Shown here one piece after another: positions 10,608 through 29,959 of a stretch of DNA of 32,639 nucleotides. A program made the translations under genes and the position numbers. Numbering within the stretch: position 1 is the first letter of the stretch; each line of letters begins with the position of its first letter. Location of the stretch: IMG/VR virus record IMGVR_UViG_3300033153_003796, positions 1 to 32,639 of that record. One strand, written 5' to 3'. This stretch comes from a virus. The notes under the pieces were generated by a model. It saw nothing but the letters and a program-made list of their open reading frames with translations. It had not been told where the DNA came from and did not search any database.

Positions 10608-11648
10608 ATGTCAATAAAAGAAAATAACTTAGTAACAATCGCAGCAGCTGACTTATCCTTAACAGATAAGATTAGATGTTTAGATTCAAAAGCATCACGC
10701 AATATTACAGTTGCTGATCTAATTACAATATTTGAAGATAATACAGATGTTACAAATGCTTTAACATTAGCAGGTGGAACATTAACAGGTGATTTAGCAA
10801 TAGTTAAAGAAGATCCTACATTATCACTAACTACAAGCACAGGTAGTACTAAATTAGCATTACAAGCATCAAGTGCAGAAACAGTTACTATTGAAATGGG
10901 TGATATTACTGATCCAGATGCAGGACAAATTGAATATGATAATAATACAAATGCATTAACATTATCAGCAGACGGTGCTGTTGGATTAACACTAGATGCT
11001 TCACAGAATTTAACAATTGTCGGTGATTTAGCTATTACAGGTGGTAATATTACTACAGCAACCACAATGGACAGTACATTAACTGTTACTGGCGCAGTTG
11101 TTAATAATAGTACAACAGATTTAAACGGTGCATTAACTTGTAAAGCAATTACAGTAGATGCAAGCTCTGCACTTGATATGGGTGCTAACAAATTAACAAA
11201 TGTTGCAGATCCAACATCAGCACAAGATGTAGTTACAAAACAATTCCTAGAAAATGACTTTTATGAACAAGGTACATGGACTCCAGTACTAAGTGACGGT
11301 ACCTTTACTGCTACAGCCACAGTACTTGGGTATTACGAACGAGTAGGTGATTTAATTACATACCGTGGTAGTATTACAGTAACAAGTTTAGGTTCAATGA
11401 CTGGTATTGTTCGTATTACAGGACTACCTTATAATGCTATTGCAGTTGAATTAGGTGATTTAGTAGTTGGTACAGCAGAAAACTTAAATGTTACAGCTGG
11501 TGAAATCATTGTTGGTACAAATGTTGCTTCTAGTAACTATATTCAATTAGGACTTTGGGACGCAACAACCGGTACTACAGATTTGCTAAGTACTGAAGTA
11601 ACTGCAACTACAATACTAAGATTTAGTGGCGCTTATAGAGCAGTCTAA
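10608..11648 (+). CDS. Tail fibre-like virion protein, 346 residues
   Basis: Residues 1-45 (MSIKENNLVTIAAADLSLTD onward) are a module shared with the protein at 19233, probably docking both to the same virion site. A Thr/Ala-rich beta repeat region follows (about 50-200; GGTLTGDLAIV, LTLDASQNLTIVGDL). Then a module near 205-220 (TNVADPTSAQDVVTKQ) typical of fibre proteins, and a C-terminal beta domain starting with EQGTWTPVLSDG and YYERVGDLITYRG, also common at fibre tips. It starts 4 bases after the gp4-like stop. Confidence 0.75.
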   Translation: MSIKENNLVTIAAADLSLTDKIRCLDSKASRNITVADLITIFEDNTDVTNALTLAGGTLTGDLAIVKEDPTLSLTTSTGSTKLALQASSAETVTIEMGDITDPDAGQIEYDNNTNALTLSADGAVGLTLDASQNLTIVGDLAITGGNITTATTMDSTLTVTGAVVNNSTTDLNGALTCKAITVDASSALDMGANKLTNVADPTSAQDVVTKQFLENDFYEQGTWTPVLSDGTFTATATVLGYYERVGDLITYRGSITVTSLGSMTGIVRITGLPYNAIAVELGDLVVGTAENLNVTAGEIIVGTNVASSNYIQLGLWDATTGTTDLLSTEVTATTILRFSGAYRAV

Positions 11649-12150: not shown

Positions 12151-12504
12151 ATGGCAAACTCATTAAGAAACGACAATCACAGATTAGATGAAGGTCTTGC
12201 TGTAACAACTGATTTTAATACAGATAATTTAGAAGTAGGTGGTGCACGAGGTTACTCTGTACTAGTTAAACTAACGGATAATGGTTCAGCAGCAGGAACA
12301 GTAAGTTTACGCGCTGGATTATCTGAAGATGACTTTATAACTATGGCAAATACTACAACTACTATGGTATATACAACTGGTGAATGCAAAATATTATTCA
12401 ATGTAACAGATCCACACTACAAGTACATGGATGTTATTGTTGCTATATCAGCAGGGGACTTAGATTACACTGTAGATGTAACTATTATTGAAGGAGAGAC
12501 ATAA
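12151..12504 (+). CDS. Small beta-rich virion protein, 117 residues
   Basis: Good AAGGAGA site before ATG 12151. The sequence alternates polar and hydrophobic residues as in a beta sandwich (RGYSVLVKLTDNGSAAGTVS, then MDVIVAISAGDLDYTVDVTI at the end). No signal peptide, no enzyme motif. Its stop overlaps the start of the giant fibre (TAATG), so it may be a fibre-associated or baseplate-like adaptor. The family is not recognised. Confidence 0.65.
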   Translation: MANSLRNDNHRLDEGLAVTTDFNTDNLEVGGARGYSVLVKLTDNGSAAGTVSLRAGLSEDDFITMANTTTTMVYTTGECKILFNVTDPHYKYMDVIVAISAGDLDYTVDVTIIEGET

Positions 12505-15500
12505 TGTCCGATATTTTTGTTAATATTGGTACTGGCGCTAGTTCAGATGGACTTGCGGACTTAGTAGACGATTTAAGCCCACAGTTAGGTTCACATTTAG
12601 ATGTAAATGGCTTCAATATTGCTTCAACCGCAGCTGGAGATATAGTATTACTTCCGGATACTACCGGTGATGTTATCATTGATGGTAACAAAATGCCACA
12701 AGGCTTTGGTAATAACGGCGAAGTACTACAAACGAACGGGGCTGGACAAACCAGCTGGGCAGCAGCATCTGCAGGTACTTTAACTGCATTATCAGATACA
12801 ACAATCACAACACTTGGTACAGATGAATTACTATTCTCACAAGACGGTGTTACATGGATAAATCAAACATTATCTGAAGCAGGTATTGAACCAGCTGACG
12901 CTACTATATTAAAAGATGCAGATATTGGTGTAAATGTACAAGCATATAGTGCAACTAATGCGCTAACAACAGACATAACTTACGGAACATTAGATACAAA
13001 TGGCGATGTTGGTACAAGTGCAGGGCAACTTGCAATTGGTAACCACACTCACACTGGTGTATACGAACCAGCTAATGCAACTATCTTAGTCGATGCAGAC
13101 ATAGGTGTAAATGTACAAGCATATGACGCTACTATTTTAGTTGATGCAGATATCGGTGTTAATGTTGCATCGCAAAGCCACAATCACACAGGTGTTTATG
13201 AACCAGCAAATGCAACGATACTTGTTGACGCCGATATAGGTGTTAATGTACAAGCATATGACTCAACGATACTTGTTGACGCAGATATAGGTGTTAATGT
13301 ACAAGCATATGACTCAACTTTACTAAATGATGCAGATATTGGTGTTAATGTAGCATCATTTGCACATACACACGGTGCAGATGATCTAACAGATGTAACA
13401 ATTGCAACACCACTAGATAAACATGCTTTAATGCATAATGGCGCCGGACAATTTGTTAATAGATTACTTGTTGAAGCTGATATTAGTGATCTTGGAACTT
13501 ATTCATTGACTTCACATAATCACACAGGTGTTTATGAGCCTGCAGATGCAACAATATTAAAAGACGCCGACATTGGTTCAACAGTACAAGCATATGATGC
13601 AACATACCTAGTAGATGCAGATATAGGTGTTAATGTACAAGCATATGATGCAACAATATTAGTAGACGCCGATATAGGTGTTAATGTACAAGCATATGAT
13701 GCTAACATACTTGCACTTAAGAGTAATCTTGTAGCAACAGCCGCACCAGCAGTCACAGACGACACAGCTGGAGGTTATGCAGTAGGTTCTGTGTGGATCG
13801 ATGTTACAGGAGACAAATCATATGTATGTGTCGATGCAACAAATAGCGCCGCTGTTTGGGTAGAGTCAGGATCAGCTGGTGCATTTACAGCAAGTTCAAC
13901 AGATACCTTAACAAACAAAACAATTAATACTGCAAGTAATACAATTACCGTAGTAGAAGCTGACATTAGTGACTTACAAAGCTATATTTTAGCTGCTGGA
14001 GTTACTTACGGAAACTTAGATGCAAATGGCGATGTAGGTACAGGAGCAACACAAGTATCACAAGGTACACATACACACACAGGTGTATATGAACCAGCTA
14101 ATGCAACTATCTTAGTCGATGCAGATATAGGTGTTAATGTACAAGCATATGATGCAACAATCTTAGTAGATGCAGACATAGGTGTTAATGTACAAGCATA
14201 TGATGCAACAATAGTTGTAGATGCAGACATAGGTGTAACTGTGCAAGGTTATGATGCCGACTTAGCTAAAATTGCAGCATTATCAAGTGCTGATAGTAAT
14301 TTTATTGTTGGTTCTGCAACTGGATGGGTTGCTGAAAGTGGAGTAACTGCAAGAGCAAGTCTTGGTGTTGCTATTGGATCACAAGTACAAGCATATGATG
14401 CTACTATCTTAAATGCAGCAGACATTGGTACAAGTGTACAAGCATATGATGCCACCAATGTTGTAGACGCAGATGTTGTTTATGCATTACTTGATACAAA
14501 TGGTGATGTTGGTACAAGTGCTGGTCAATTAGCTATCGGTAACCATACTCACTCAGGTGTATATGAACCAGCAGATGCAACAATATTAAAAGACGCAGAC
14601 ATAGGTGTAACGGTACAAGCATACGACGCTGTATTAGCCGACATTGCAGCATTAACAGTTACTAAAGGTAATATCATTGCAGCAAACGCAACCGACTATG
14701 TTGCTCTCGCTATTGGTACTAATGATTATGTACTTACAGCAGATTCAACAGCAGCTACCGGAATGGCTTGGAAAGCAGCAGCAGGCTTGCCAACACTAAA
14801 TGATGTTACTGATGTAACAATTACAACAGTTGCAACAGGCGAATTACTTGTTAAATCAGCAGGCGATTGGATTAACCAAACATTATCCGAAGCAGGCATT
14901 GAAGCTGTTGGACATACACATGTAGAAAACGATATTACTGATCTGCAAGCATATACTTTACCTGCTGATATTGTGTACTCGTTGCTTGACACAAATGGCG
15001 ATGTAGGTACAAGTGCAGGGCAACTAGCAATTGGTAACCACACTCACACAGGTGTGTACGAACCAGCAGACGCCACGATAGTAAAAGATGTTGATATTGG
15101 TGTTAATGTACAGGCTTATGATGCTACTATCTTAGTCGATGCAGATATAGGTGTTAATGTACAAGCGTACAGTGCAACTAATACACTTGACGCAGATGTA
15201 GTATATGCATTACTTGATACAAATGGCGATGTTGGTACAAGTGCAGGGCAACTTGCAATTGGTAACCACACACATACAGGTGTATATGAACCAGCTAATG
15301 CAACTATCTTAGTAGATGCAGACATAGGTGTTAATGTACAAGCATATGACGCAACCAATGTCGTAGATGCTGATGTCACATACGCATTATTGAACACAAA
15401 TGGCGATGTTGGTACAAGTGCAGGGCAACTTGCAATTGGTAATCATAATCACTCAGGTGTATATGAACCAGCTAATGCAACTATCTTAGTCGATGCAGAT

Positions 15501-16730
15501 ATAGGTGTTAATGTACAAGCGTACAGTGCAAGTAACGCATTATTAGCAGATGTTGACTATGAAAGATTAGACACAAATGGCGATGTTGGTACAAGTGCAG
15601 GACAACTTGCAATTGGTAACCACACACACTTACTTGCAGCCGGAGCAACAGATGTAACGGCTCTTGCTGCTGAATTAAACTTACTTGATCTAGTAGGACT
15701 TACTGCAGGTTATGTACTATCAGCAGATACTGCAACAACAGCTAGTTGGAAAGCACCAGCAGCAGGTGCGGAAGTTAATGATCTTACCGCTGCGGTTACT
15801 TGGGATAATATTCCAATTGCAAATGTTCCAACAGGCACATCAAGTTCAACTGTTTCACTAGGTAACCATACTCACACAGGTGTATATGAGCCATCTGACG
15901 CAGGACTAACTTCAATTGCAGGCTTAACTACTCTTGCAGATAGAATGATTTATACAACTGCTTCTGACACCTACGCAGTTACTCCGTTAACGGCTTTTGC
16001 AAGATCAATACTTGATGATGCAAACGAAGCAACATTTAAAGCAACAGTTAACTTAGAACCAGGTGTAGATGTACAAGCATACGATGCTACTAATGTAGTT
16101 GATGCTGATGTGGTGTATGCATTATTAGATACAAATGGCGATGTTGGTACAAGTGCAGGCCAGTTAGCAATTGGTAATCATACACATACAGGCGTATATG
16201 AACCAGCTGATGGCACTATCTTAAAAGACGCCGATATAGGTGTAACTGTAGAAGCCAAAGATGCAGGATTAACTTCAATTGCTGGATTAACCACTGTAGC
16301 TGATAGAATGATTTATACAACTGCTTCTGACACTTATGCAGTATCAACATTAACAGCAGCAGGTCGTGCATTAATTGACGATGCAAGTGCTTCAGCCCAA
16401 AGAGCTACATTAGGACTTGATAAGTTTGATTTAACATTCCAAATATCAACAGGTGAAGATGCTACATTTAACTTACATCAATATGCACAGTTTGCTTATA
16501 CTATTGATAAAGCATATTACAAAACAACTAGTGGAACTATTACAGCAGCTATTAAAATTGATGGTACTGATGTAACAAGTTTAAGTGCATTAGCAATAAC
16601 AAGCACAGAAGGCAATGCTACCGCATCAGCAGCAAACACAGTATCTGTAGGTAACACAGTCTCAGTTGTAACGACATCTAACTCAACAGCGGTAAATACT
16701 AGTATAACATTACATTGCACAAGGAGTTAA
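12504..16730 (+). CDS. Giant repeat tail fibre with HxH motifs, 1408 residues
   Basis: A very long adhesin. The N-terminus has the widespread phage fibre docking motif LVDDLSPQLGSHLDVNGF (about residues 19-36). Most of the chain is built from shuffled modules: about 19 copies of DADIGVNVQAYDA-like units, seven of DTNGDVGTSAGQLAIGNH plus a variant, and 13 HxH motifs (mostly in GNHTHTGVYEPA). Two tandem modules near the end begin DAGLTSIAGLTT, each about 55 residues. The last 100 residues form a distinct beta domain (FDLTFQISTGEDATFNLH onward), the likely receptor-facing tip. In T4 gp37, HxH motifs bind iron in a trimer; a similar metal-stitched trimer is likely here. The sulfotransferase gene follows with no gap. 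Confidence 0.88.
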   Translation: MSDIFVNIGTGASSDGLADLVDDLSPQLGSHLDVNGFNIASTAAGDIVLLPDTTGDVIIDGNKMPQGFGNNGEVLQTNGAGQTSWAAASAGTLTALSDTTITTLGTDELLFSQDGVTWINQTLSEAGIEPADATILKDADIGVNVQAYSATNALTTDITYGTLDTNGDVGTSAGQLAIGNHTHTGVYEPANATILVDADIGVNVQAYDATILVDADIGVNVASQSHNHTGVYEPANATILVDADIGVNVQAYDSTILVDADIGVNVQAYDSTLLNDADIGVNVASFAHTHGADDLTDVTIATPLDKHALMHNGAGQFVNRLLVEADISDLGTYSLTSHNHTGVYEPADATILKDADIGSTVQAYDATYLVDADIGVNVQAYDATILVDADIGVNVQAYDANILALKSNLVATAAPAVTDDTAGGYAVGSVWIDVTGDKSYVCVDATNSAAVWVESGSAGAFTASSTDTLTNKTINTASNTITVVEADISDLQSYILAAGVTYGNLDANGDVGTGATQVSQGTHTHTGVYEPANATILVDADIGVNVQAYDATILVDADIGVNVQAYDATIVVDADIGVTVQGYDADLAKIAALSSADSNFIVGSATGWVAESGVTARASLGVAIGSQVQAYDATILNAADIGTSVQAYDATNVVDADVVYALLDTNGDVGTSAGQLAIGNHTHSGVYEPADATILKDADIGVTVQAYDAVLADIAALTVTKGNIIAANATDYVALAIGTNDYVLTADSTAATGMAWKAAAGLPTLNDVTDVTITTVATGELLVKSAGDWINQTLSEAGIEAVGHTHVENDITDLQAYTLPADIVYSLLDTNGDVGTSAGQLAIGNHTHTGVYEPADATIVKDVDIGVNVQAYDATILVDADIGVNVQAYSATNTLDADVVYALLDTNGDVGTSAGQLAIGNHTHTGVYEPANATILVDADIGVNVQAYDATNVVDADVTYALLNTNGDVGTSAGQLAIGNHNHSGVYEPANATILVDADIGVNVQAYSASNALLADVDYERLDTNGDVGTSAGQLAIGNHTHLLAAGATDVTALAAELNLLDLVGLTAGYVLSADTATTASWKAPAAGAEVNDLTAAVTWDNIPIANVPTGTSSSTVSLGNHTHTGVYEPSDAGLTSIAGLTTLADRMIYTTASDTYAVTPLTAFARSILDDANEATFKATVNLEPGVDVQAYDATNVVDADVVYALLDTNGDVGTSAGQLAIGNHTHTGVYEPADGTILKDADIGVTVEAKDAGLTSIAGLTTVADRMIYTTASDTYAVSTLTAAGRALIDDASASAQRATLGLDKFDLTFQISTGEDATFNLHQYAQFAYTIDKAYYKTTSGTITAAIKIDGTDVTSLSALAITSTEGNATASAANTVSVGNTVSVVTTSNSTAVNTSITLHCTRS
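12892..16262 (+). repeat. Degenerate tandem repeats within the giant fibre gene
   Basis: DNA units encoding DADIGVNVQAYDA and DTNGDVGTSAGQLAIGNH recur through more than 3 kb. Copies are near-identical in protein but vary at third codon positions (for example GATGCAGAT versus GACGCCGAT). Such repeats allow recombination that lengthens, shortens or shuffles the fibre. Confidence 0.85.
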
Positions 16731-17306
16731 ATGATGGAGAGAACATTTTTCGTATCTGGATACATGAGATCTGGTACAAGTATGATGATGCAAGCATTAG
16801 TAGCAGGCGGTTTAGAACCTGCTTTTAATAAATCAAGAGAAAATATGAACCAGCAGTTTGGTGATGAAGATTATAAACCAAATGCTAAAGGATTCTATGA
16901 ATTAAACAGAAGTCAATACCGTGCATTGGATTTTCCAAAAGCACACGAAGGTAAAGTGCTTAAATGTTTATATGGTGGAATCAATAAAATCATTGCAGGC
17001 GATTATAAGATAGTTTTTATGATGCGTAACTTTGAAGAAATAAGACAAAGTTACGATGCATTCTTTGATACTGATGCAACATTAGATGTCGATCAGTACA
17101 CAGCTATAATGGCAAATACTATAGGTATATTGCAACAGCGTAGAGATGTAGATTTAACGGTTCTTAATTACAGAGATGTTATTGATAACCCTGTTAAAGA
17201 ATTTACCAAACTTGCACACTGGGGCATTAATGTAGAAGAAGCTGCTAAAGTAGTAGATCCAGAATTACTTAGATTTAAGTTAGAAGACTTAGAGATTGGA
17301 ATATGA
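16731..17306 (+). CDS. PAPS-dependent sulfotransferase family protein, 191 residues
   Basis: Predicted to move a sulfuryl group from PAPS to a hydroxyl or amine acceptor. The 5'-phosphosulfate loop is clear (VSGYMRSGTSMM, residues 8-19). The 3'-phosphate site has the family spacing Arg-x7-Ser in MMRNFEEIRQSYDAFF (R99, S107). It is shorter than typical members (about 250-300), so the acceptor-binding part is reduced. Which residue acts as catalytic base cannot be told by eye. ATG 16731 directly follows the fibre stop with AAGGAG upstream; ATG 16734 is equally possible. It overlaps the next gene by 4 bases, and an APS kinase lies one gene further. Confidence 0.85.
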   Translation: MMERTFFVSGYMRSGTSMMMQALVAGGLEPAFNKSRENMNQQFGDEDYKPNAKGFYELNRSQYRALDFPKAHEGKVLKCLYGGINKIIAGDYKIVFMMRNFEEIRQSYDAFFDTDATLDVDQYTAIMANTIGILQQRRDVDLTVLNYRDVIDNPVKEFTKLAHWGINVEEAAKVVDPELLRFKLEDLEIGI

Positions 17307-18745
17307 GAGTAGTTAAGAACATACAAGAAGCGGCGGCTAATATGACAGAGGTAAAACTGCGTCGAACTACACACAGCAAAACTTATCATATTAGCAACAA
17401 AACTTACAGAACATTTCAAACAATAACTCCTATTCATTGGATAGATGAGAATGATGACTTGCGAACTATTGACTTAACACCTGTTGATAAAGGTGACCAT
17501 TGGTTCATAGACAAAGCACCATATACCCTTAAAGTTTATAAGGATACACTTGATGTAGATTACACAAGTGACTTAGGTGGCAACACTAAAATTAAATTAA
17601 TGAAGATTGGAGATGTTCCTGTAACAGCACTGAATATTGAACCAATTATTGATGATGAAGGAATAACATTCAAGAATGTTAAGCCAAATTTGGACTTGCA
17701 GTTAAAGATTGGCCCAATGGGAATAGAATGGTATAAAGTACTACATAATAATACAGTAGCTACTAAGTTTGAGTGGGAAGTACTTGAAGATAAAGATAAG
17801 ACTACCGGACACAGACCAAAGGCTATTGGTAAAGATGCTGGAAACAATCACATTGAATTGATCAACAATAAAGAGCAAATAGATGATGTTCTTGGACAGA
17901 ACTGTTTTAAAATGACAGAAGAATTTACTGGTAGAATTAAAGTAGTACAGAATAATAAGACTCGTGTTAAGTCTTGGTCTACTAATGTTACATATCCTGT
18001 AACAATCGATGTACCTGATATTACGGAAAGTGTAGTTGCGGCTGAAGATGGCTTTAATGATGATTGGGCAAGTCAGTATTACTATTGGGGTGGTCCAGGC
18101 ACTGGTAGTCCAGCGTCAACTGGTTCTATAAGTGGTATGGCAGGAACATATGATGGTTACTGGGGGCGTAGAGGTTTCGCAACCCATAAGCACGCCTTAC
18201 ACCAAGGATATCCTCACTTTTACTTTGTTAAAATATATCAACAGAATATGGTATTTAGGTTTACAACAGTTGCCGTTCCAGTTGCGTCTACAATCGCATT
18301 AGCTGAATTGAAAGTGTATGTACAGTCAGTTGGCGGCGGTGGTATAACAACAGGTACAGTTAAAGGAATAGATGAAGATAATGTAGCAGTTAACTCTTCT
18401 GGTAACAGATGGTCTCCAAAAACAAAGACAACAGCAACAACAGCATCTGGCACAATTAATTCAACAGGGTCTAAAGCAATAGATGTTACTACAATCGTAC
18501 AAGAAATTGTAGACAGAGCTGGATGGGCTAACAACAACGCAATTGGTATGTTTATGAGTGGTGAAGATCCAACTGGATTAAGACCGATTGTATCATCAGC
18601 TGCAACAGGCTTTACAAATACTGGCTCAGCCCTAAACAGAGTACAGCTTGATTTAGTAGAAGCAGCAGGTACTAACCAGGCTGTACTTGAAATTACATTT
18701 GAAACAGCAAGTACTACACCACTAATTAACTTTGTTGGTCTGTAA
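17303..18745 (+). CDS. Probable virion surface protein inside the sulfation cassette, 480 residues
   Basis: No enzyme motif seen. Residues 1-230 look beta-rich and resemble a cell-surface or virion scaffold segment (SKTYHISNKTYRTFQTITPI near 25). Residues about 235-290 hold a Tyr/Gly/Asp-rich stretch (AAEDGFNDDWASQYYYWGG). The C-terminal part (about 310-480) resembles the DNRLRE-like beta sandwich of adhesive proteins (VFRFTTVAVPVASTIALAEL; VTTIVQEIVDRAGWANNNAI). Its ATG overlaps the sulfotransferase stop and its stop overlaps the APS kinase start, so all three should be translated together. It is a candidate substrate for sulfation, an inference from position and tyrosine content. Confidence 0.7.
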   Translation: MRVVKNIQEAAANMTEVKLRRTTHSKTYHISNKTYRTFQTITPIHWIDENDDLRTIDLTPVDKGDHWFIDKAPYTLKVYKDTLDVDYTSDLGGNTKIKLMKIGDVPVTALNIEPIIDDEGITFKNVKPNLDLQLKIGPMGIEWYKVLHNNTVATKFEWEVLEDKDKTTGHRPKAIGKDAGNNHIELINNKEQIDDVLGQNCFKMTEEFTGRIKVVQNNKTRVKSWSTNVTYPVTIDVPDITESVVAAEDGFNDDWASQYYYWGGPGTGSPASTGSISGMAGTYDGYWGRRGFATHKHALHQGYPHFYFVKIYQQNMVFRFTTVAVPVASTIALAELKVYVQSVGGGGITTGTVKGIDEDNVAVNSSGNRWSPKTKTTATTASGTINSTGSKAIDVTTIVQEIVDRAGWANNNAIGMFMSGEDPTGLRPIVSSAATGFTNTGSALNRVQLDLVEAAGTNQAVLEITFETASTTPLINFVGL

Positions 18746-19242
18746 TGGCTTATGTTATCTTATTTGAAGGGTTAAGTGGTGCAGGTAAAACTACTTTAGC
18801 CGAATGTGTAAGTAAAGAAATAGATTGTGTTATATTAGATGGTGATGCTGTACGCAGAACTATTAATAGAGATTTAGGGTTTAGTATACAAGATAGACAC
18901 GAAAACTTAAGAAGAATTGGTGAAATAGCAAGATTGTTGCAAGGCATAAATATAAATGTATTAATTGCTACAATAACACCATTTAATAATGATAGACAAA
19001 TGCTTAGAGATATGCTAGGTCCAGATTTTATAGAAGTATATTGTAAAGCCCCATTAAAGGTGTGTGAAGCAAGAGATCCAAAGGGCAATTATAAATTAGC
19101 TCGTGAAGGTAAGATACAACAGTACACAGGGATTAATTCTGCATTCGAACAACCAGATGGAGCGGATTTGATACTAAATACAAACAAATTAAGCATTGAA
19201 GAATGCACCAAACAGGTAATAAGGAAAATAAAATGTCAATAG
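18745..19242 (+). CDS. cysC: Adenylylsulfate (APS) kinase, 165 residues
   Basis: Phosphorylates APS with ATP to make PAPS, the donor used by sulfotransferases. Motifs follow the family in order: Walker A GLSGAGKT (9-16), LDGD (31-34), DLGFS (43-47), the RHENLRR segment (51-57), TITPF (76-80) where most members have ISPY or ISPF, then RDPKGNYKLAREGKIQQYTG (110-129) as the lid. Length is near full. The usual Ser before Pro is Thr here, which keeps a hydroxyl. The start overlaps the preceding stop (TAATG). No ATP sulfurylase is visible, so APS would come from the host. An enzyme gene amid tail genes suggests auxiliary metabolism serving sulfation. Confidence 0.93.
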   Translation: MAYVILFEGLSGAGKTTLAECVSKEIDCVILDGDAVRRTINRDLGFSIQDRHENLRRIGEIARLLQGININVLIATITPFNNDRQMLRDMLGPDFIEVYCKAPLKVCEARDPKGNYKLAREGKIQQYTGINSAFEQPDGADLILNTNKLSIEECTKQVIRKIKCQ

Positions 19243-19721
19243 AAGAAAACAACTTAGTAACAAATGCAACAATGGACGCTAGTGATAAAGTCCGTATACT
19301 TGATGGTGATACTTCGCGCAATATAACATTGCAAGATATGAGCGAATCACAGCAAGCAATACTTGAAGCACTTGGGTTTTATACAACCTCATCTGCACCA
19401 AGCAACTTATCACAAACCCGCAAAGTAACTACTGAAGCAGTAGATTTTGTACTAGATGATACAGATAGTATAATGCTATGTGATACTTCCAGTGGTGCTG
19501 TTACAATTACTTTGCCAACAGCAGCTTCGATTTGGGATGGTACTAACAATGTAAGTCAGCAGTTTACAGCAAAACGAATTACAGGTGATAGTAACTCAGT
19601 TATTATTGCACCAGCAGGCGCAGAGTTAATTGATGCTTCTGCAACATATACATTAGCTGGTCCAAGTTTAACAACTATAACTTTTGTCACAGACGGAAGT
19701 AATTGGTACACAGTAGGATAA
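19233..19721 (+). CDS. Fibre or adaptor protein sharing its N-terminus with the 346-residue fibre, 162 residues
   Basis: Begins MSIEENNLVTNATMDASDKV, closely matching the start of the protein at 10608, and the similarity continues through SRNIT. This fixes the start at 19233, with AAGGAAA upstream, rather than at an ATG at 19203 inside the APS kinase gene. The rest is a beta-rich domain (VTITLPTAASIWDG, VIIAPAGAELID) ending FVTDGSNWYTVG, a usual end of small phage tail-tip proteins. It probably docks at the same site as the 346-residue protein, perhaps as an alternative or short adhesin. Confidence 0.75.
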   Translation: MSIEENNLVTNATMDASDKVRILDGDTSRNITLQDMSESQQAILEALGFYTTSSAPSNLSQTRKVTTEAVDFVLDDTDSIMLCDTSSGAVTITLPTAASIWDGTNNVSQQFTAKRITGDSNSVIIAPAGAELIDASATYTLAGPSLTTITFVTDGSNWYTVG

Positions 19722-27772: not shown

Positions 27773-29959
27773 ATGACAACTAAATTATCAGATACAGGCT
27801 ATCCAGTATACGAATCAATTGCAACATTAAAAGGTGTTGGATTAAGTGCTGGCGACATTGTAAGAACCGCAGCATATTATGGTGGTTGGGCAGCATTAGG
27901 TGATGCACCTATAAGTGGTTCAACATATGGTATTGTTACTTCTACAGAATTTACAAATATTACTGGGCATAGTAGCCCAGATGGGTTTGGCGATCATACA
28001 TTAGACAATGGCTTAGTTGCTATGCTAGTTGATCGTTCAATTAAGAATGTTCAACAATACGGTGCTAAAGGCGATGGTGTTCAAAACGACACTACATTTA
28101 TACAAGCAGCTTACGATGCTGTTGGTATAGACGGCGATGGACAGGTACACTTTACAAAAGGTATCTTTTCAATCGCCCCAGCAGCAGATAAGTCTACTTA
28201 TATGTGGATTGCTTCATTAAGCGGTCGTAAAAACTATGCTGTTATTTGGGTTCCAAGCAACTGTTTAACTACAGGTGAAGGCCCAAGTTCAGTTATTAAA
28301 TTAGCTAATACATTAGATAGTGACGGTACTCCAACAGATGGTCGTGGCGATTATGCAACAACACAGATGTTTGTTAACAAAGGTGTTGATGGAGTTGGTA
28401 CATATACAAAGTACATTGTTAATGAAAACATTCACTTTGACGGTGTCAAGTTTGATGGTAACTGGGTTAGTGAATCCGGTGAAGGTATTACCTTAGACGG
28501 TGTATCTAACTTTAGTGTACATAACTGTCACTTTACAAAATCCTTTTACGAATGCATGTACATGGTATATAGTCGTAATGGTATATTCAGCGATAACTTT
28601 GTTTACTTAAATGGTTTGCAAAGCGGAGCATTACAAGATGGCGGTGGCCCATTAGTTGATAGCAGCGAAGGTATTATTGTACGCGACAATGTTATTACAG
28701 ATAGTGGTTATTATGCTATATTAATGGTTGATAGCTGGAACTGTAAAATACAGAATAACACAATTACTAAGAAAACATATACATACGGTTCAGGTTTCCA
28801 AGCTATTCGCGGAGAAGTTAACAAGCACTGTGAAATCAGTGGTAACTTTGTAATGGAATCAGGATATGCTGGTATATGGGATCACAAAGGTGTTAACAAT
28901 ACCATTAGAGATAACACCGTAGTTAAGTGTGGTTATGCAGCAGCGGCTGGTAGCCAAATACACGGTATATTAGTAGATGACTTAGATAGCTTAGAAAATG
29001 GGCGTGATACAATTACTGGTAACTTATGTGTTTATAACTTCGGTAGTGGCATTGGTATTAATGGTGCTATACCAACAGGCGATACAGTTAATCACTTTGC
29101 AGGACATATTATTGCAGAAAACACTTGTTTATACAATGGCTGGGATGGCATTGCTGTGTATGGTGATCATCACAGAATAGTAAATAACACTTGCGAAGCT
29201 AATGGTACTTCAGAAACAAGCGGTACAGTTGGTAATGGTTATAATGGTATTGCATTAAACGGTTCAAAATATTGCATGGTTACAGGTAACAGTTGTCAGG
29301 ATATTCCTAGAACAACTGATATTGATATTAACTTAGATGCACAGTTATCTCCATATCAATCATATACAGCACTTGCAGTAACGCATACCTTCCAAACACA
29401 GAACTACGGTATTCGTGAATTACCGGCTGGTATTGCTGAAGTAGCTGTTACAATTACATCTGTAACCACAACTGCTACAGTTGCATTAGAAGGACACGGT
29501 GCAGTAGTTGGGCAAAAGATATTTGTTTACGGTGCAGATGAAACAACTTATGATGGTTACTACAAAGTTGCAACGGTTCCTGATGTAGATACATTTACAT
29601 ATACACTAGGGTCAACTCCAACTGATGCAAGTGTTGCAGCGCAATGTGCTGTAGAAGTAATTGAAGCAGACTATAATGTTATTACAAATAACAACATGTC
29701 AAACAACCTTGCAAATACAGGCTATGGTGTTGCTGGTGGATTTGAACATCGCACATTCTGGATTGAAACTGCTGGTGCTTTTGTTATAGGTGATCAACTT
29801 GAAATTGTAACAGTTGGTTCGACTGACTTTACTGCAATTGGTGCAAGTGCTAATACAGTTGGCGTTACATTTACCACAACCGGTGTTGGTACAGGTACTG
29901 GTGAAGCAAATGTAATCGTTGGAGCGAATACAACCCAAACAAACAACATAAGCGCATAA
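27773..29959 (+). CDS. Tailspike with parallel beta-helix, 728 residues
   Basis: Adhesin or depolymerase at the end of the late block, as gp9 in P22. A virion-binding start is followed by the signature QQYGAKGDGVQNDTTFIQAA (about 94-113), which marks the beginning of pectate-lyase-like beta-helices. Rungs follow to about residue 520 (FSVHNCHFTKSFYECMYMVY; GIIVRDNVITDSGYYAILMV). Two added beta modules are seen near the end: one of the EGHGAVVGQKIFVYGADETT type (about 570-620), and one of the GSTDFTAIGASANTVGVTFT type (about 685-710). Both are widely reused in phage tail proteins. Active-site residues cannot be assigned by eye. Confidence 0.87.
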   Translation: MTTKLSDTGYPVYESIATLKGVGLSAGDIVRTAAYYGGWAALGDAPISGSTYGIVTSTEFTNITGHSSPDGFGDHTLDNGLVAMLVDRSIKNVQQYGAKGDGVQNDTTFIQAAYDAVGIDGDGQVHFTKGIFSIAPAADKSTYMWIASLSGRKNYAVIWVPSNCLTTGEGPSSVIKLANTLDSDGTPTDGRGDYATTQMFVNKGVDGVGTYTKYIVNENIHFDGVKFDGNWVSESGEGITLDGVSNFSVHNCHFTKSFYECMYMVYSRNGIFSDNFVYLNGLQSGALQDGGGPLVDSSEGIIVRDNVITDSGYYAILMVDSWNCKIQNNTITKKTYTYGSGFQAIRGEVNKHCEISGNFVMESGYAGIWDHKGVNNTIRDNTVVKCGYAAAAGSQIHGILVDDLDSLENGRDTITGNLCVYNFGSGIGINGAIPTGDTVNHFAGHIIAENTCLYNGWDGIAVYGDHHRIVNNTCEANGTSETSGTVGNGYNGIALNGSKYCMVTGNSCQDIPRTTDIDINLDAQLSPYQSYTALAVTHTFQTQNYGIRELPAGIAEVAVTITSVTTTATVALEGHGAVVGQKIFVYGADETTYDGYYKVATVPDVDTFTYTLGSTPTDASVAAQCAVEVIEADYNVITNNNMSNNLANTGYGVAGGFEHRTFWIETAGAFVIGDQLEIVTVGSTDFTAIGASANTVGVTFTTTGVGTGTGEANVIVGANTTQTNNISA

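Follow-up and report, generated by a model that had tools for sequence, protein, structure and literature searches.

The stretch of DNA analysed here (the window) covers positions 1 to 32,639 of an IMG/VR virus record 35,625 b long and belongs to a P22-like podovirus, as judged from its terminase, portal, scaffold, coat and head-closure genes. Its late plus-strand operon runs from a gene for a 1408-aa tail fibre into open reading frames of 191, 480 and 165 aa, which encode a PAPS-dependent sulfotransferase (ST; 16731..17306, +), a tail adhesin (P480; 17303..18745, +) and an APS kinase of the CysC type (APSK; 18745..19242, +). The repetitive fibre (12504..16730, +), which carries NHTHTGVYEPANATIL and VNVQAYDATILVDADIG repeats and matches the PHROG tail fiber protein family phrog_24210 (E 9e-17), lies immediately 5' of ST, and a Shine-Dalgarno-like AAGGAG read from the sequence (16721..16726, +) sits within the 3' end of the fibre gene, 4 b ahead of the ST start codon. 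ST and P480 overlap by 4 b (17303-17306; ATGA), and the APSK start overlaps the P480 stop by 1 b (18745; TAATG), confirming the gene positions, the overlaps and the giant fibre neighbour given in a preliminary description of this DNA. A downstream gene, likely encoding a tail protein (19233..19721, +), probably starts at 19233, a choice of start that would make it overlap APSK by 10 b, and has the same N-terminal anchor as the gene at 10608-11648. This anchor, MSI(K/E)ENNLVT, is found in two tail genes (window 10608-10700 and 19233-19320), with N-termini MSIEENNLVT.. and MSIKENNLVT.., and the fibre and the three-gene cassette are situated between them.

The PAPS-site motifs that had been proposed for ST map to residues 10-20 (GYMRSGTSMMM, G10 to M20; 16758..16790, +), the 5'-phosphosulfate-binding loop, and to residues 97-107 (MMRNFEEIRQS, M97 to S107; 17019..17051, +), the 3'-phosphate-binding motif. 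In an alignment of 72 sequences, G10, R13, G27, E57, R99 and S107 are invariant, and G15, T16, S17, M18 and M20 of the 5' loop are conserved at 90% or more; R13, R99 and S107 are expected to hold PAPS, and Glu57 (16899..16901, +) is a candidate general base by analogy with other sulfotransferases. Profile searches, which placed APSK above its cut-offs, left ST as a single sequence below that of Pfam Sulfotransfer_3 (PF13469; 23.5 bits, cut-off 27, E 7.5e-5), although family members in three other loci (numbered with the prefix L; L173, L165 and L171) exceed it, so that the shortfall reflects a limit of sensitivity rather than a missing feature. The P-loop-like fold agrees: for an AlphaFold2 model with a pLDDT of 95.2, the structural matches in the PDB are almost all PAPS sulfotransferases, and the model resembles TPST1/2, the olefin-synthase sulfotransferase, Teg12/14 and SULTs. 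The best VIA match is TPST1 (5wri, Z 12.5), with other sulfotransferases tied within about 1 Z, and Foldseek matched Teg14 (3nib, 1.2e-5), while phmmer matches in the PDB were repeat-protein noise only and were set aside.

Within the Sulfotransfer_3/PAPS sulfotransferase superfamily (TPST1/2, Teg12/14, StaL, the olefin-synthase enzyme), ST shares the fold (VIA Z 10-12.5), the RSGTS 5' loop and the R...S 3' motif, but it differs in having just 191 aa, 12-15% identity and a single, sub-threshold Pfam score, and it is devoid of the large acceptor-binding additions of TPST. From the confident model and the conserved motifs, ST is a member of a small PAPS-sulfotransferase family, and it would be catalytically active. 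Its relatives were reached through a degenerate pattern for YxPNxxGFYE, and the alignment of the sequences so obtained was then used for scanning, which yielded 55 viral loci and more than 500 cellular stretches; single-sequence tblastn found no relatives among deposited phages and plasmids, nor did one-sequence patterns in viral contigs. Several cellular relatives neighbour genes of PAPS synthesis: L173 has the order ATP sulfurylase (Sat), ST, APS kinase, L207 likewise places ST beside APS kinase and Sat, and the relatives in L162, L172 and L205 adjoin APS kinase, which provides independent evidence that the ST family works with PAPS.

P480, previously described as a probable virion protein of 480 residues, is a tail-adhesin-type protein, an assignment that draws on its ST-adjacent homologues, profiles and a structural model. 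The model (pLDDT 81.8) is all-beta, with two main domains: an N-terminal beta domain delimited by our alignment A3 (RTTHSKTYHISN ... PIHW ... IDLTP ... YPVTIDV; 17342..18037, +) and a C-terminal DNRLRE/CBM96-like beta-sandwich (18236..18712, +) recognised from weak profile scores and structure matches. The sequence scores for CBM96 (E 6.6e-4; 20 of 26 bits) and DNRLRE (E 2e-3; 18 of 34 bits) fall below the curated cut-offs and denote fold resemblance only. By structure, the C-terminal half resembles carbohydrate-binding modules, the best covered being a chondroitin-sulfate-binding CBM (8wab, TMt 0.61), and it also matches phage CBM96 proteins. P480 thus has its C-terminal domain in common with DNRLRE/CBM96 phage tail proteins and differs from them in its additional N-terminal beta domain, the class that alone has ST neighbours. 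A comparison of hydroxyl-bearing columns between ST-linked and unlinked adhesins gave no clear candidate for a sulfated residue, since the columns conserved in the linked proteins are mostly conserved in the unlinked ones too.

APSK, which had been called complete-looking, scores 162 bits against Pfam APS_kinase (cut-off 21.1; E 1.1e-47) and passes the NCBIfam equivalog TIGR00455 (176.4 bits, cut-off 138.7). An alignment that includes human PAPSS2 shows that it keeps the P-loop, DGDxxR, DRxENxRR and the lid KGxYKxAxxGKIxxxTGI, and it shares up to 48% identity with other viral copies. It is therefore like CysC in length and in all motifs, and it differs in its setting, a tail operon with neither PAPS reductase nor ATP sulfurylase; an ATP sulfurylase-like gene was sought in the window record with the CTP_transf_like profile and none was found. 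Judged by their sequences, both ST and APSK look intact and belong to families of the PAPS pathway. Matches to APS kinase among deposited phages were excluded from the evidence: L005 and L006 are small human-gut scaffolds, and 'Pseudomonas phage Y4' (OQ572406.1; L007), flagged UNVERIFIED, carries a stretch of glycan genes of bacterial appearance (glycosyltransferase, sulfotransferase and APS kinase) and is probably misassembled or contaminated.

Among 49 viral ST clusters defined at 80% identity, a P480 homologue adjoins ST in 27, and this recurrence in independent clusters places the arrangement well beyond chance. The pairing is found in 15 of the 18 clusters with at least 40% identity to the window ST and in 12 of the 31 below that level, and the commonest junctions are overlaps of 1 b (10 cases) and 4 b (9 cases). 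A P480 HMM gave 32 matches among 13,125 ORFs, all of them within ST loci, while the same scan gave none in 80 viral loci seeded with APSK, nor in 80 cellular ones. Conversely, in a scan seeded with P480, for which alignment A4 was taken because A3 was too diverse to scan the collection, ST was present in 10 of 24 loci with the N-terminal domain, a rate biased by the ranking of nearest relatives first, versus 0 of 55 loci with the C-terminal domain only (Fisher p 1e-6). The terminase of the window can be recognised in 3 of 50 ST records and a P22-type portal in 1 of 21, the window's own not counted, so the ST-P480 pair sits on different backbones, which are unrelated in most cases. ST and P480 distances are correlated (Mantel r 0.34, p 2e-4), a congruence that could reflect no more than the co-inheritance of tail genes. 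Two counts speak against reading the two as an enzyme and its adhesin, namely that no P480 neighbour could be recognised in about half of the viral ST clusters and that 14 of the 24 N-domain loci lack ST.

The joining of the two enzymes, on which the preliminary description had built its sulfation module, recurs in relatives at a lower frequency. An APS kinase above cut-off occurs in 5 of 50 viral ST records versus 0 of 50 controls, a positive outcome for the survey of relatives which that description had called for; by counts alone the enrichment reaches p 0.056, to which adjacency adds, each kinase gene lying immediately 5' of ST. The conserved unit is thus ST with P480, and APSK is an optional accessory, which leaves most relatives dependent on PAPS from the host. 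The description of the cassette as self-sufficient was overstated: most relatives lack APSK, and in the window phage APS would itself come from the host. What had been observed at the locus therefore holds, whereas its interpretation is partly supported, with a correction as to which partner is conserved.

In four of the five APSK-carrying ST records, an NMN-adenylyltransferase-like nucleotidyltransferase is also encoded. Reading the genes showed it adjacent to an APS-kinase-like gene in L111 and fused to it in L115 and L120, all three loci having the nucleotidyltransferase/APS-kinase genes first, then ST, then the adhesin, and a further fusion occurs in L078. The small HxGH NMN-adenylyltransferase-like protein and the APS-kinase-like domain come in either order and neighbour sulfotransferases (L111:508-1234, L115:3033-3851, L120:7373-8011, L078:7641-8498), and possibly form an unconventional PAPS synthase or make a different 3'-phosphonucleotide donor. 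L107, L111 and L120 encode short APS-kinase-like proteins that have no C-terminal lid and, from their sequences, may not be APS kinases. Other sulfotransferase subfamilies overlap or adjoin APS kinase in L053:7105-8516, L076:1256-2816 and L084:7938-9352, and these pairs, found in APS-kinase-seeded viral contigs, adjoin tail or fibre-like genes.

The preliminary description had offered as inferred outcomes that virion proteins or a surface glycan are sulfated; of these, the data gathered here point rather to tail proteins, the partner adhesin or others, as the acceptor. We infer, with about even confidence, that ST and P480 form the core of a sulfation cassette that is portable among tailed phages, whose activity, timing and benefit would be as follows. 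Late in infection, ST would transfer sulfate from PAPS onto the adjacently encoded adhesin or neighbouring tail proteins, the adhesin itself being the presumed acceptor, and it would probably do so during or just after translation, as overlapping genes should be translated in step. In the window phage, APSK may have been added to raise the supply of PAPS from host APS, since virion proteins are made in bulk and little free PAPS is available. With sulfate attached, the tail tip would become strongly negative, which could alter receptor binding, stability or recognition. A bolder form, in which a dedicated, mobile enzyme-acceptor pair serves phages for the post-translational sulfation of their own receptor-binding apparatus, some of them adding a complete branch for making the donor in which the NMN-adenylyltransferase-like/APS-kinase fusion is an unconventional PAPS synthase, is put forward tentatively and seems to us on balance doubtful.

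The most serious alternative, which we nevertheless regard as rather unlikely, is that the cassette acts on a glycan of the host surface such as capsule or O-antigen, sulfating it during infection or lysogeny and so altering the receptor and excluding other phages in the manner of phage seroconversion genes, with P480 as merely an adhesin fitted to the altered or original glycan. The carbohydrate-binding resemblance of the P480 C-terminal half, with a chondroitin-sulfate binder as its best-covered match, fits this idea, as would the co-inheritance of an adhesin with a receptor-altering gene, and bacterial sulfated-capsule clusters do contain sulfotransferases and cysC (PMC11641403, PMC11766843), with L007 and L173 as instances here. 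The phage also has a tailspike with a pectate-lyase-like fold, a 728-aa right-handed beta-helix protein encoded at window 27773-29959. However, the cassette lies in a late structural operon with translational overlaps rather than among early or lysogeny genes, ST is small and soluble, and a capsule sulfated by the product of a late gene could no longer protect the cell in time. Searches of the window record gave no match to the glycosyltransferase families PF00535 and PF00534, which argues against a phage-made glycan as acceptor, and the record showed no further glycan-modifying gene (glycosyltransferase, acetyltransferase, flippase), although virus records are incomplete and absences from them are evidence of lower quality.

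A further alternative is the exchange of tail-gene blocks. Tail regions recombine as blocks, so ST, P480 and APSK could have been co-exchanged while ST acts on a small molecule, and the Mantel congruence is expected under this account as much as under sulfation of the adhesin; the account is nonetheless improbable in our judgement, because ST is associated specifically with N-domain adhesins (10/24 vs 0/55), the pairing persists below 40% ST identity (12/31 clusters), and the pair holds across different backbones while the other neighbours change. Still less credible are two further readings. That APSK boosts host sulfate assimilation with ST as an unrelated passenger would accord with the cataloguing of viral cysC as an assimilatory auxiliary gene, a role not validated (PMC12713726, PMC10127799), but PAPS reductase is missing from all 50 ST-bearing records, including that of the window, which may be incomplete, APS kinase adjoins ST wherever it is found in them, and L053, L076 and L084 repeat the pairing of the two enzymes beside tail genes. 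A comparably slight probability attaches to an ST-fold enzyme whose donor is a 3'-phosphorylated nucleotide carrying some other group to be transferred, along the lines of the Campylobacter pathway to CDP-phosphoramidate 3'-phosphate. Cj1415 of Campylobacter is an APS-kinase homologue that makes the donor. The enzymes Cj1415-Cj1418 produce CDP-phosphoramidate 3'-phosphate (PMC11800397), and the fused or adjacent NMN-adenylyltransferase-like and APS-kinase-like proteins of L078, L111, L115 and L120 are where such chemistry may apply. In the window, by contrast, the kinase scores above the equivalog cut-off for APS kinase and has its lid, no NMN-adenylyltransferase-like nucleotidyltransferase is present in the record, and cellular ST relatives adjoin ATP sulfurylase.

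Little is known, as far as we are aware, about the sulfation of proteins in bacteria and in the viruses that infect them. Single viral genes of both kinds are known already: besides cysC, viral sulfotransferases have been catalogued as auxiliary genes (PMC8290583, PMC10829341, PMC12285232, PMC13079714). Virome surveys list members of these families singly and read them as assimilation or general host metabolism, whereas here ST, APSK and a tail adhesin are physically linked in one run of genes. The open-access literature yielded no match for phrases on phage or viral sulfotransferases and no description of an ST-adhesin pair or of ST with APS kinase in a tail operon, although an earlier report may have been missed. 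If sulfation of the adhesin or its neighbours is correct, a sulfotransferase that travels with an adhesin among phages that are for the most part unrelated would represent a novel means by which receptor binding is tuned or protected, and it would explain why sulfotransferase and cysC genes appear in viromes that lack assimilation genes. The cassette would also provide a defined enzyme-substrate pair, testable with three small genes.

Two further features were noted. The 1408-aa fibre contains 53 Tyr, mostly within AYDA/VYEP repeats whose context resembles an acidic one; as the repeat was considered in the window phage alone, it was left out of the evidence. Finally, the ST family, distinct, small and found in phages and MAGs, has cellular members that are often fused to other domains: in L165:5982-8540, L171:2437-5421 and about 20 more cellular loci, the ST relative follows a type I phosphodiesterase and TPR repeats in proteins of 850-1050 aa.
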